NCBI GenBank assembly: GCA_903915125.1
Contig: CAIWRR010000229.1
Span: 1-36,028 of the forward strand
Direction of reading: 5' to 3'
Source of the DNA: Candidatus Firestoneibacteriota bacterium
GTDB lineage: Bacteria; Oederibacteriota; D2-FULL-39-29; CAIOVX01
DNA: 36,028 bases
Of the stretch, positions 22,573 to 27,108 are shown in pieces (position 1 is the stretch's first letter; the number at the start of each line of letters is the position of its first letter). A program made the translations under genes and the position numbers. The notes beneath the pieces are model-generated. The model saw nothing but the letters and a program-made list of their open reading frames with translations. It searched no databases and had not been told where the DNA came from.

Positions 22573-23586
22573 ATGATAAAAGAAGCTCTTCTAAAAGTTA
22601 TTGACAATAAAGAGGACCTGACCAGGGACGAAATGTCCACTGTTATGGATGAAATTATGAGCGGCATCTGCCCGCCTGCGCTAATAGGAGCATTTTTGGT
22701 AAGCCTGCGCATGAAAGGCGAAACCATTGAAGAGATTTCCGGCGCGGCCGAATCAATGAGAAATAACGCAATCCATATAAAGACAAAACACAGGAATGTA
22801 ATAGATACCTGCGGAACCGGCGGAGATAAAAGCGACACCTTCAACGTTTCAACAACGGCTGCTTTTATCGTCGCGGGCGCCGGAGTGCCTGTAGCAAAAC
22901 ACGGAAACCGCGCTGTATCATCAAAATGCGGAAGCGCCGATCTGGTTGAAGCGCTCGGCATAAAACTTGAGATTCCGCCAGAACAAATAGGGCGTTGCCT
23001 TGATGAAGCAGGAATCGCTTATTTGTTCGCGCCGCTGCTGCACACCTCAATGAAATTTGTAGCCCCTGTGCGCAAGGAACTCGGCATAAGGACCATTTTC
23101 AACATAATAGGCCCCCTTGCAAACCCTGCGAGAGTAAAGCATCAGGTGATAGGCGTATTCTCGGAAAAACTCATGAATGACTATATTCATGTTCTGAAAA
23201 ACATAGGACACACCCGGGCGCTCGTCGTCCACGGCCACGGCGGGCTTGATGAAATATCACTGGCCGGCCCGACAAAGATATTGGAGCTCAATAACGGAAA
23301 GATAGAATCCTATACAGTGAAACCCGAGGATTTCGGAGTAAAACATTCAAAACTCTCTTTACTTAAGGGAGGGGATATATCGCAGAACAAAGCCATAACG
23401 CTCGATATTCTTAAAGGCGTGGGCGGTGTGTTCGCAGACATGGCGGTAATTAACGCCGCCGCCGGCATCGTCGCAGGAGGCAAAGCTCATAATCTTAAAG
23501 AAGGCGCAGACCTCGCAAGGCAATCTATTGCCTCGGGAGCAGCCTTAAAAACCCTTGAAGCGTTAAAAGAACTCACTAATTCCTGA
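22573..23586 (+). CDS. trpD: Anthranilate phosphoribosyltransferase
   Basis: DTCGTGGDKSDTFNVSTTAAFIVAGAGVPVAKHGNRAVSSKCGSADLVEALG; RTIFNIIGPLANPA. Confidence 0.98.
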   Translation: MIKEALLKVIDNKEDLTRDEMSTVMDEIMSGICPPALIGAFLVSLRMKGETIEEISGAAESMRNNAIHIKTKHRNVIDTCGTGGDKSDTFNVSTTAAFIVAGAGVPVAKHGNRAVSSKCGSADLVEALGIKLEIPPEQIGRCLDEAGIAYLFAPLLHTSMKFVAPVRKELGIRTIFNIIGPLANPARVKHQVIGVFSEKLMNDYIHVLKNIGHTRALVVHGHGGLDEISLAGPTKILELNNGKIESYTVKPEDFGVKHSKLSLLKGGDISQNKAITLDILKGVGGVFADMAVINAAAGIVAGGKAHNLKEGADLARQSIASGAALKTLEALKELTNS

Positions 23587-24359
23587 TGAATGATATCCTT
23601 GCAAAAATAACCGCCTTAAAACGGAAAGACCTTTCGGCGCTGAAAAAGCGCTTGCCTCTTCGCGTGCTGCTGAAAGCCATCGAAACCGCTCCGGGAACTA
23701 TCAGTCTGTCCAAAGCGCTGAGAACCTGCCGCGTTTCAATAATCGCCGAAGTTAAGAAAGCTTCCCCCTCAAAAGGGCTGATTTCATCAAATTTCGCGCC
23801 TGTCAAGACAGCTCTTGAATTTGAAAAGAACGGCGCGGCGGCCATTTCCGTTTTGACAGAAGAGAATTTTTTTCTTGGAAACTTGGGCTATCTTGCCGCG
23901 ATAAAGGGATGTGTCGGGGTACCGGTCCTGCGCAAGGATTTTATTATAGACGAATATCAAATCTATGAATCCCGCGCGGCAGGCGCTGACGCGATCCTTC
24001 TGATAACTGCCTGTCTGAGCAAAAAAGAATTAAGACATTTCATAAAACTCTCCCTCCTGCTTAACATGGACGCGCTTGTTGAAACACACGATACGAAAGA
24101 AGTTTTAACCGCCTTGGATTGCGGCGCGAAGATTATAGGGATAAACAACAGGAATCTCAGGAATTTCAAGGTTGATATTCGCACTACCGAAATAGTAAGA
24201 CAGAGCATCCCGCCGGGAATAATCATTGTCTCCGAGAGCGGAATAGCTACGAAAGCTGATATACGTTACCTGTCAGCGTTAGGAATCAACGGCGCCCTGA
24301 TAGGAGAAGCTTTAATGCGGTCAGCGGTTCCGGGGAAAGCGCTCAGGAGGCTAAAATGA
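23586..24359 (+). CDS. trpC: Indole-3-glycerol phosphate synthase
   Basis: IIAEVKKASPSKGLISSNF; VPVLRKDFIIDEYQIYESRAAGADAILLI; IIGINNRNLRNFKVDI; VSESGIATKADI. Confidence 0.97.
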   Translation: MNDILAKITALKRKDLSALKKRLPLRVLLKAIETAPGTISLSKALRTCRVSIIAEVKKASPSKGLISSNFAPVKTALEFEKNGAAAISVLTEENFFLGNLGYLAAIKGCVGVPVLRKDFIIDEYQIYESRAAGADAILLITACLSKKELRHFIKLSLLLNMDALVETHDTKEVLTALDCGAKIIGINNRNLRNFKVDIRTTEIVRQSIPPGIIIVSESGIATKADIRYLSALGINGALIGEALMRSAVPGKALRRLK

Positions 24360-25180
24360 AACTGGGAATCTGCAGCGAAGTCTTTAACGGCTGGGACTGG
24401 GAAGAAACCTGCGAATTTGTAAAAAGAACGGGGTATGATGGCATCGAAATCGCGCCATTCACCCTTGCCAAATCAGTTGGCCTGATCGGCGACGCAAGAA
24501 GAAGCGAGTTAAAGGCAGTCGCAAAAAAGCATGACCTTGAAATAATAGGCCTCCACTGGTTGCTTGTCAGTCCTGAAGGGCTCGCCATAACAACTACTGA
24601 TGCGCTCCTCCGCGAGAAAACAAAAGCGTATTTCTTCGAACTTATAAGATTCTGCTCGGACCTCGGCGGAAAAGTTATGATTGTAGGATCTCCAAAACAG
24701 AGAAACGTGCCGGAAGGCATGACCTATGCGGCGGCAATTAATTCTGCCAAGGAATTCTTTATGGACTGCGCTAAGGAAGCCGGACGGTCCGGCGTTACCC
24801 TATGCCTTGAACCTCTCTCCACGGCTGAAACTAACATTTTCAGCACGGCTAAAGAGACGCTTGACTTCGTGAAGGAGCTTGACCATCCCAATTTTCAAAT
24901 GATGCTGGATGTTAAAGCAATGTCTTCGGAAAGCAAATCAATACCTGCCATTATTTCGGACTGCAACGGTTACTTCAAACACTTTCACGCCAACGATGAG
25001 AATAAAAATGGACCGGGTTTTGGAAACACTGATTTTGTGCCTATAGCCGCGGCGCTTAATTCGTCCGGTTATGATAAATATGTGTCTGTCGAGGTCTTTA
25101 ATTTCACACCGGGTCCGGAAGTTATCGCTAAAAAAAGCTGCGAATATCTTAAACGGATTTTCAAAACAGAACCGCATTGA
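24356..25180 (+). CDS. Sugar phosphate isomerase/epimerase-like TIM barrel (AP_endonuc_2 family)
   Basis: GYDGIEIAPFTLA; LEIIGLHWLL; LCLEPLSTAETNIFSTAKETLDFV; FQMMLDVKAM; HFHANDENKNGPGFGNTDFVPIAAAL; YVSVEVFNFTPGPE. Confidence 0.85.
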   Translation: MKLGICSEVFNGWDWEETCEFVKRTGYDGIEIAPFTLAKSVGLIGDARRSELKAVAKKHDLEIIGLHWLLVSPEGLAITTTDALLREKTKAYFFELIRFCSDLGGKVMIVGSPKQRNVPEGMTYAAAINSAKEFFMDCAKEAGRSGVTLCLEPLSTAETNIFSTAKETLDFVKELDHPNFQMMLDVKAMSSESKSIPAIISDCNGYFKHFHANDENKNGPGFGNTDFVPIAAALNSSGYDKYVSVEVFNFTPGPEVIAKKSCEYLKRIFKTEPH

Positions 25181-25205
25181 CATTGCATTCTGGAAAAGGT
25201 AATAT
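25177..25205 (+). promoter_or_regulatory. Putative sigma70 promoter TTGACA-N17-TAATAT overlapping the stop codon of the isomerase gene
   Basis: TTGACA at 25177-25182 and TAATAT at 25200-25205, spacer 17. Confidence 0.6.
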
Positions 25206-25212
25206 CGCATAA

Positions 25213-25965
25213 ATGAGCGCAGTGAAGAAGCGCATAGCAAGAGAAGCAGGTGCAAAAGCCTCCGGAAAAACTCCGGAGGCTTTTTTCATATATGACGCCA
25301 GCGGACGAATCCGCTTTTCTTATCTTGGATCAATCCTCGCGGCAACAACAATGCTTATTTTTGCAATGCTCGTCTTTAACATACTAAAAAAGAATGAACC
25401 GGCGGTAAAAGAACCGGCGGCGGAACTGACAAAACAGCCCTGCGGTTTAAAACAATTCGGGCCATATATAATAACCTGCGTTATTGACGGAGACACGGTT
25501 GTGCTAAATACAGGAGACCGGGTGCGCATGAAAGGCATTGACGCGCCTGAACTGCATCACCCGGTGATACCCGCTCAAAGATTCGGGGAGGAAGCGCGCG
25601 ACTTTCTTAAAAACCTTGCGGAAGGTAAAAGGTGCTTTCTGGAATATGACGATTACGATTCAAAGGATATGTACGGCCGCGCACTGGCTTATGTATATGT
25701 TGACAATACCGACCTTAACGCCGAGATGCTTCTTCGCGGTTTTGCATATCTTTACACCTTTAAACCCTTCAGAAAGAAGGCCGCCTATACTGCCTGCGAG
25801 AGGGAAGCGCGTGAGAAACACCGCGGAGTGTGGAATTTTGACCTAAAAGACGGAAGGATTTCGCACCTGGTTAACAGCTATCAGTTATTAAACGATGCGG
25901 GTAAATCAAAACTGGACGACAATTTCAAGGAACTTCTGAGTATTTATCCGGCAAAAGGAGATTAA
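25213..25965 (+). CDS. Membrane-anchored thermonuclease (SNase-like); true start uncertain (25213, or a later start such as 25351)
   Basis: CVIDGDTVVLNTGDRVRMKGIDAPELHH; YDSKDMYGRALAYVYVDNTDLNAEMLLRGFAYLY; CEREAREKHRGVWN. TM segment LGSILAATTMLIFAMLVFNIL. Confidence 0.85.
   Translation: MSAVKKRIAREAGAKASGKTPEAFFIYDASGRIRFSYLGSILAATTMLIFAMLVFNILKKNEPAVKEPAAELTKQPCGLKQFGPYIITCVIDGDTVVLNTGDRVRMKGIDAPELHHPVIPAQRFGEEARDFLKNLAEGKRCFLEYDDYDSKDMYGRALAYVYVDNTDLNAEMLLRGFAYLYTFKPFRKKAAYTACEREAREKHRGVWNFDLKDGRISHLVNSYQLLNDAGKSKLDDNFKELLSIYPAKGD
25254..25286 (+). terminator. Intrinsic-terminator-like hairpin inside the 5' part of the thermonuclease ORF
   Basis: AAAAGCCTCCGGA-AAAAC-TCCGGAGGCTTTT: 13-bp stem (9-bp GC-rich core), 5-nt loop, run of six Ts from 25281. 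Confidence 0.88.
25300..25320 (+). terminator. Second, weaker hairpin plus T-rich stretch just downstream
   Basis: AGCGGA-CGAA-TCCGCT followed by TTTCT. Confidence 0.45.
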
Positions 25966-25966
25966 A

Positions 25967-26422
25967 ATGGACAGAGCAAAACTATTGAATTTCGCAATTA
26001 AAGCTGGAATTACTGCCGCAGCGGCAATTGCCGTGCTATTGTGCTTTAAACTCCTAATAATTGATTCCCGCGGCCAAAAAACTGCTCCGCAAGCCGGCAA
26101 TGTTGCGGGAGAGTTTGTTCCGCCGGTAAATGTTACCGTCTCAGATGCGGCCAACAATATTGGCAAGAATATCATTATTGAGGGCACGATTACCAAAAGC
26201 CATAATTCAGGAAAAGTTGTTTTGCTAAATTTCAAAAACGGCCTGAACCTCTATCTTACCTGTGTTATCTTCGCCTCGGATTTTAAAAATTTTCCTGAAA
26301 AACCGGAAAAATACTATCTCGGCAAAAAAGTGAGAGTTTCAGGAAGGGTGAAAGAGTATAAAGGAGCCCCGGAGATTATACTGGGTTCCCAGAATCAAAT
26401 ATCGCTAATCAAGGAGCCTTGA
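25967..26422 (+). CDS. Membrane-anchored OB-fold (nucleic-acid-binding-like) protein
   Basis: N-term TM (AGITAAAAIAVLLCFKLLII). OB-like segment VSDAANNIGKNIIIEGTITKSHNSGKVVLLNFKNGLNLYLTCVIFASDFKNFPEKPEKYYLGKKVRVSGRVKEYKGAPEIILGSQNQISLI. Confidence 0.7.
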   Translation: MDRAKLLNFAIKAGITAAAAIAVLLCFKLLIIDSRGQKTAPQAGNVAGEFVPPVNVTVSDAANNIGKNIIIEGTITKSHNSGKVVLLNFKNGLNLYLTCVIFASDFKNFPEKPEKYYLGKKVRVSGRVKEYKGAPEIILGSQNQISLIKEP

Positions 26423-26470: not shown

Positions 26471-26479
26471 TGCTATAAT
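26471..26479 (+). promoter_or_regulatory. Perfect extended -10 element (TGCTATAAT) for trpF
   Basis: TGCTATAAT, 5 nt before ATG 26485; no SD. Confidence 0.6.
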
Positions 26480-26484
26480 ATTCT

Positions 26485-27108
26485 ATGACGTTAGTTAAAG
26501 TATGCGGAATAACAAACTTGGACGATGCCCGGGCCGCCGTTGAGTACGGCGCGGACATACTTGGCTTTATTTTTGCAAAGAGTCCGCGGCATGTTACCCC
26601 GGCGCAGGCAGGCAAGATCACAGAAAAACTTCATCCTTTCACTCTTAAGGTCGGAGTTTTTGTTAACGAAAACCCCAGGGCAGTGCTAAAGCTGGCTTCC
26701 GCTATAGGACTTTCTGCCGCGCAGCTCCACGGAGACGAACGCCCTGAAATCCTTCCCCTTTTTCATCCGTTACCGGTAATCAAGGCCTTTCGCATCAAGG
26801 ATAAATCTGACCTTGCTCTATTACCATCATACATTACCGCATCAGCTTTCCTGCTGGACGCTTTTGTCGCTGGTAAAAGAGGAGGCACAGGCAGGACTTT
26901 CGACTGGAAACTGGCAGTCTCAGCCAAGCAAATTGGAAATCCCGTCATACTTTCAGGAGGACTTACTCCGGAAAATGTCTCGGATGCGATAAGAAAGGTG
27001 AATCCCTATTGCGTCGATGTGAACAGCGGCGTGGAATCAAGGCCTGGCAAAAAGGACCTGAGAAAATTGAAAAAGTTTATTTCTAACTGCAAAAGAGCTT
27101 CAGGCTGA
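26485..27108 (+). CDS. trpF: Phosphoribosylanthranilate isomerase
   Basis: [89 protein letters not shown]. Confidence 0.97.

Follow-up and report, generated by a model that had tools for sequence, protein, structure and literature searches.

A putative pyrBI-type transcription attenuator within a leader reading frame fused to a nuclease gene in Candidatus Firestonebacteria

The locus and its genomic context

The stretch of DNA analyzed here (hereafter the window, 36,028 nucleotides) belongs to a member of Ca. Firestonebacteria, and the sister loci also come from Ca. Firestonebacteria genomes. In the window, his genes are followed by trpE-trpG-trpD-trpC, a TIM-barrel gene, a gene for a staphylococcal-nuclease-like protein (SNase), an OB-fold gene, and trpF-trpB-trpA. 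The comparison set consisted of the window and three species of the same genus (G001, G002, and G003), uncultured lake bacteria. The features discussed below are the following:

25177–25205, plus strand: promoter TTGACA-N17-TAATAT, read directly; spacing identical in G001, G002, and G003 without indels
25212–25213, plus strand: probable transcription start, placed from the 7-nt gap found in four species and from the leaderless gene class of the genus
25213–25296, plus strand: leader ORF, codons 1–28 of the SNase ORF; 84 nt free of indels in four species
25213–25965, plus strand: membrane-anchored SNase; PF00565, E = 7e-24; predicted helix at residues 38–60
25254–25286, plus strand: intrinsic terminator with a 13-bp stem, a 5-nt loop, and six T's, assigned from folding and conservation; overlaps codons 14–25
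25967–26422, plus strand: OB-fold protein with an N-terminal hydrophobic segment; PF01336, E = 1.5e-5, slightly short of the curated cut-off
26471–26485, plus strand: leaderless promoter of trpF, TGCTATAAT; extended −10, 5 nt before the ATG; invariant in four species

The OB-fold gene follows the SNase gene in all phylum relatives checked whose contig is long enough. The pair formed by the membrane-anchored SNase and the OB-fold protein (25213–26422; L005–L014, L016) occurs phylum-wide and, in this order, within the trp cluster; we take it to recall a split YhcR-like nuclease. The gene upstream of the pair (24356–25180), which encodes a sugar-isomerase/epimerase-like TIM-barrel protein, is part of the trp operon in this genus. 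In the sister family of the order, the SNase-OB pair directly follows trpC without the TIM-barrel gene; the SNase start overlaps the end of trpC and lies just before the hydrophobic segment, and there is no leader. More generally, the leader is absent from the order-level relatives.

A conserved promoter and a probable leaderless start

The sequence-only reading of the window had pointed to a promoter with an ATG 7 nt further on. This description is exact: TTGACA occupies 25177–25182 and TAATAT 25200–25205, separated by a 17-nt spacer, and a 7-nt gap leads to the ATG at 25213. The layout is kept in the three sister species, each having TTGACA or TTGACT, 17 nt, a −10 box, 7 nt, and a start codon, then a hairpin with its U-tract at the identical place. 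Over the 120 nt from the −35 box to codon 28, there are no insertions or deletions across the four species. The −35 box is TTGACA in three of them and TTGACT in G003, the −10 box is TAATAT or TATAAA, and the gap between the −10 box and the start codon is 7 nt in all four. The −35 box overlaps the stop codon (25178–25180) of the TIM-barrel gene; in G003 this stop codon has moved and no longer overlaps, and TTGACT is kept.

Between positions 23000 and 28000, nine promoter-like matches were found, a count above that of shuffled sequences (4.9, sd 2.5). Among these nine, the SNase promoter is joint-best with two others (score 10/12) and the only one having a perfect −35 box. Its −10 box is weak (4/6), and its 7-nt gap falls at the margin of the 5–6 nt peak seen for leaderless genes of the genus.

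This peak was obtained from 715 genes on contigs of G000 and G003, with −10 boxes required to match at least 5/6. Such boxes lie 5, 6, and 7 nt before the start codon in 13, 11, and 6 of the 357 genes without a Shine-Dalgarno (SD) sequence, and in 0, 0, and 0 of the 358 genes with one. Since a −10 box at 5–7 nt and an SD sequence are mutually exclusive, a class of leaderless genes is real in this genus; it amounts to roughly 4% of genes. The SNase start has no SD sequence at the usual distance of 3–8 nt. We infer from the constant gap and from this gene class that the 5′ end of the mRNA lies at the ATG or 1 nt before it, which would make the mRNA leaderless. An AAAAGG motif in the promoter spacer (25194–25199) is invariant in the four species, the remainder of the spacer diverging; at 13 nt before the ATG, it may be a weak SD sequence or a promoter element.

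A terminator-like hairpin inside the nuclease reading frame

The 13-bp hairpin with a T-run that had been noticed in the sequence is present. Its arms are AAAAGCCTCCGGA (25254–25266) and TCCGGAGGCTTTT (25272–25284), closed by the loop AAAAC (25267–25271), and the run of six T's occupies 25281–25286. The GC-rich stem is thus followed directly by a U-run, as in an intrinsic terminator. The 41-nt hairpin has a folding energy of −22.9 kcal/mol, compared with −7.3 (sd 2.3) for shuffled sequences (z = −6.7), and none of 200 shuffles was as stable. It is conserved in the three sister species, with energies of −23.3, −26.3, −24.7, and −14.5 kcal/mol in the four. Two of the 13 stem pairs have changed on both sides, each time from A-U to G-C, and one further pair has become G-U. 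The covariation score was reached in 9 of 500 shuffles and is lower at every slid register; for an alignment of four sequences, the stem is thus well, though not overwhelmingly, supported.

A terminator inside the start of an ORF had been called unusual. Indeed, among 716 gene starts of the genus (roughly 1 Mb of contigs from two species, G000 and G003), this is the sole strong hairpin with a U-run inside a bona fide coding sequence. Other very stable hairpins at gene starts either have no U-run or are usual gene-end terminators that an over-extended ORF has taken in. Two apparent in-ORF terminators of G003 (L040 and L045) also sit in over-extended ORFs, one of them at the end of a gene and the other after a tRNA-like sequence. 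A covariance model of the leader (R1) gives strong matches in this genus only, always at this locus and one per genome (E = 1e-18 to 1e-22 over the four); the six weaker matches checked elsewhere (E about 1e-4 to 1e-2) all resemble ordinary end-of-gene terminators. No Rfam match in the window exceeds its gathering score.

Near-identical hairpins close ordinary genes in the same genus; the hairpin is therefore of a kind used here to stop transcription. Loci L122 (G000:C65, about 1840–1920) and L124 (G001:C98), for example, carry an end-of-gene terminator almost identical to the leader hairpin, of the GGCCTCCGG..CCGGAGGCC type, and a terminator of this type sits after an unrelated gene of the genus. 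This resemblance also speaks for the main rival to regulation at this site, namely that the hairpin simply terminates the upstream unit (trpEGDC and the TIM-barrel gene) and by chance overlaps the beginning of the following gene. It would block upstream read-through, and the nuclease promoter would bear a fixed loss. No second terminator separates the TIM-barrel gene from the SNase gene, and the stem begins 73 nt past the stop codon, within the range of other genes. The main counter-argument is that the downstream promoter precedes the terminator and that this order is kept in four species. A fixed loss, moreover, leaves the rigid register of promoter, start codon, and hairpin unexplained, and in the sister family trpC runs directly into the SNase gene with no terminator between them. 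On balance, we consider a plain terminator of the upstream unit rather unlikely.

A second hairpin, which the sequence-only reading had placed, together with a T-rich stretch, at 25300–25320, did not hold up. Its energy of −8.5 over 25300–25315 corresponds to z = −0.97, with 31 of 200 shuffles as good, and it is absent from all three sister species; we attribute it to chance. A bidirectional terminator was also considered and rejected, the T-run of the minus strand not being conserved. Directly after the U-tract, CATATGTGA (25287–25296; CATATATGA in the window) is nearly invariant in the four species, a conservation that exceeds the needs of the hairpin alone.

Coding constraint on the leader and the start of the nuclease

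As had been stated, the SNase ORF stays open through both hairpin positions. The leader starts with ATG or GTG at the same place in the four species. Within codons 1–28, substitutions at the first, second, and third codon positions are in the ratio 1:3:9 between the window and G002, and 3:7:14 between G002 and G003. Their concentration at third positions in frame 0 indicates that the leader is not only folded but also translated. The comparison of hairpin and codons among relatives that the sequence-only reading had proposed finds both kept in the genus, two double-sided stem changes coexisting with the third-position bias.

Leader and nuclease form one continuous frame in the window, G001, and G002. 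G003 instead has the leader as an ORF of its own, 33 codons long (MNAVQRRKDIDSASKASVKTPGAFFICDYTEPK), whose stop codon overlaps the nuclease start by ATGA; in these draft genomes, a one-base assembly error in an AAA run could mimic such a split. The AlphaFold model, built from only 8 aligned sequences and having a mean pLDDT of 66, gives values below 50 for residues 1–24, except residue 4, and a helix at residues 38–60, over the hydrophobic segment. Given pLDDT values below 50 for nearly all of residues 1–24, the part encoded by the leader is probably not a folded domain.

These data bear on a plain coding explanation, in which the N-terminal tail KASGKTPEAFFICD is conserved as protein and the hairpin is a by-product. 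Such an explanation accommodates the third-position bias in frame and the good conservation of the amino acids of the hairpin segment among the three fused species. However, the tail is missing from relatives outside the genus, it is a separate ORF in G003, and its residues 1–24 are predicted to be disordered. Furthermore, of the two double-sided stem changes, the one at K15/A23 is synonymous on both sides. Among conserved residues, identical codons are found at 30 of 36 positions in the hairpin vs. 282 of 440 in the nuclease domain, counts that are pooled over non-independent species pairs. A purely coding origin of the hairpin thus appears very improbable.

The first of the two models offered by the sequence-only reading, a discrete small RNA followed by a nuclease starting later, for example at ATG 25351, is unlikely as it stands. 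In three of the four species, there is no in-frame ATG, GTG, or TTG between the hairpin and the membrane helix, and ATG 25351 lies inside this helix, which led us to reject a start there. A nuclease with its own later start does exist in G003. A terminated RNA of ~75 nt would be made under both models alike. One may then suppose that this RNA acts in trans, possibly as a small leaderless mRNA too, the nuclease being secondary. Indeed, a promoter 8 nt before the start and a terminator 72 nt after it amount to a complete small transcription unit, and the rnTrpL RNA of Sinorhizobium meliloti, which carries a leaderless ORF, offers a known case of an attenuator RNA acting in trans (PMC7298713). 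However, apart from keeping the reading frame, the 42 nt ahead of the hairpin have diverged freely, the element is found in this position only, and three species have no other nuclease start before the membrane helix. We judge a trans-acting RNA to be quite improbable.

A possible attenuation mechanism

The second model, a leaderless mRNA on which a ribosome counteracts the terminator, best fits the comparative data, because the spacing is conserved, no SD sequence is present at a normal distance, leaderless genes form a class in the genus, and both frame and hairpin are conserved. We propose that the element is a transcription attenuator of the pyrBI type, with its terminator inside a leaderless leader ORF, serving the SNase-OB gene pair; we put the probability of this reading at a little under 60%. 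The exact 5′ end, actual termination, and ribosome-dependent read-through are inferred from sequence and conservation.

According to the proposed mechanism, transcription would begin at or next to ATG 25213, leaving the start codon at the very 5′ end of the transcript. Within ~72 nt, this transcript could fold into the strong intrinsic terminator, and transcription would stop, giving an RNA of ~75 nt. If a ribosome loaded on the 5′-terminal AUG reached about codon 10–15 before RNA polymerase cleared the U-tract, it would cover the 5′ arm, the hairpin would not form, and transcription would run on into the SNase and OB genes. Synthesis of the nuclease would need this same ribosome as well, since leader ORF and nuclease make up one fused frame in three species and are linked by the ATGA overlap in G003. 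Read-through would thereby report the speed of translation start relative to transcription. Faster initiation relative to transcription, for example with low NTPs as in pyrBI or with more free 70S ribosomes, would switch the pair on, and a leaderless start would spare the ribosome the wait for a 5′-UTR.

The sequence argues against several specific signals. The 42 nt before the stem are poor in T (10–12% in each of the four species, a content under the 2nd percentile for gene starts), which argues against a UTP sensor, and the U-rich pause tract that precedes the terminator in pyrBI-type elements is not found here. No TGG occurs in codons 1–28 of any of the four species, which argues against a tryptophan sensor, and no run of one regulatory codon was seen in the leader. 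Folding of 25213–25330 gives the terminator preceded by only weak local helices, and no clear competing antiterminator was seen; by eye, a short GGCC/GGCC pairing appears in G001 only. GAG/UAG repeats of the TRAP type, also searched by eye, are few in the leader and not conserved, and were discarded. As guides to transcription-translation coupling, the purine content of the sense strand is 52% and a minority of stop-to-stem distances are below 12 nt.

In Escherichia coli, a terminator lying within 100 bp of the start of a coding region keeps most of its efficiency, as the ribosome arrives too late, and 75 nt is too early for leadered genes (PMC4824070). By analogy, read-through might be low here unless the polymerase pauses. 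The locus would allow one to test directly if leaderless initiation lets the ribosome catch the polymerase within 75 nt. If the proposal is right, the element would be a very small translation sensor, made up of a promoter, a 5′-terminal AUG, and, within the first 25 codons, a terminator, without aptamer, antiterminator, or regulatory codons. Its leader peptide would be free or fused to the regulated protein depending on the sister species. It would also be a case, from an uncultured phylum, of attenuation that relies on leaderless initiation.

An unlikely further possibility is that this one terminator sorts transcripts by their 5′ end. In read-through transcripts from trpEGDC, the AUG would be internal and devoid of a good SD sequence; these RNAs would be untranslated and would stop. 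RNA started at 25212 would have its AUG at the tip, would be translated immediately as a leaderless mRNA, and would pass. A single sequence would then insulate the upstream operon yet let through the transcripts of its own promoter, the leader peptide being joined in some cases to the first protein.

Relationship with known attenuators

The pyrL ORF of E. coli has an ordinary leader, is distinct from pyrB, and senses UTP through U-rich pause sites. The present element has in common with pyrBI an intrinsic terminator within a translated leader ORF. In contrast, its ORF is probably leaderless, is shorter before the stem, is T-poor, and is fused to the first gene in three species; the element would control a nuclease pair rather than a pyrimidine operon. 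In pyrBI, the terminator lies in a 135-bp leader gene and is suppressed by a ribosome close behind RNA polymerase, pausing letting the ribosome catch up; terminators overlapped by ribosomes are suppressed (PMC4824070, PMC5021804).

Leaderless leader peptides are known from S. meliloti trpL (PMC7298713) and Corynebacterium glutamicum ilvBNC (PMC11857589). As proposed here, transcription of these leaders begins at their start codon or 1 nt away. However, trpL and ilvBNC rely on regulatory codons and competing hairpins and have the terminator after the leader ORF, whereas the present element has no Trp codons, no clear antiterminator, and a terminator inside the ORF. Another system of S. meliloti, at a DUF1127 gene, uses attenuation by a uORF responding to ribosome availability, and in it, too, expression depends on ribosomes initiating at a short ORF (PMC12218461). 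That system showed no intrinsic terminator, and its expression falls with translation, whereas here translation should raise it. The element would thus combine two known designs, a terminator in a leader ORF and a leaderless leader ORF.

The trpF promoter

The terminator had also been expected to split the trp cluster transcriptionally. This is only partly right, trpF having its own conserved leaderless promoter. Thanks to this promoter, trpFBA can be transcribed independently and is not gated by the attenuator alone.
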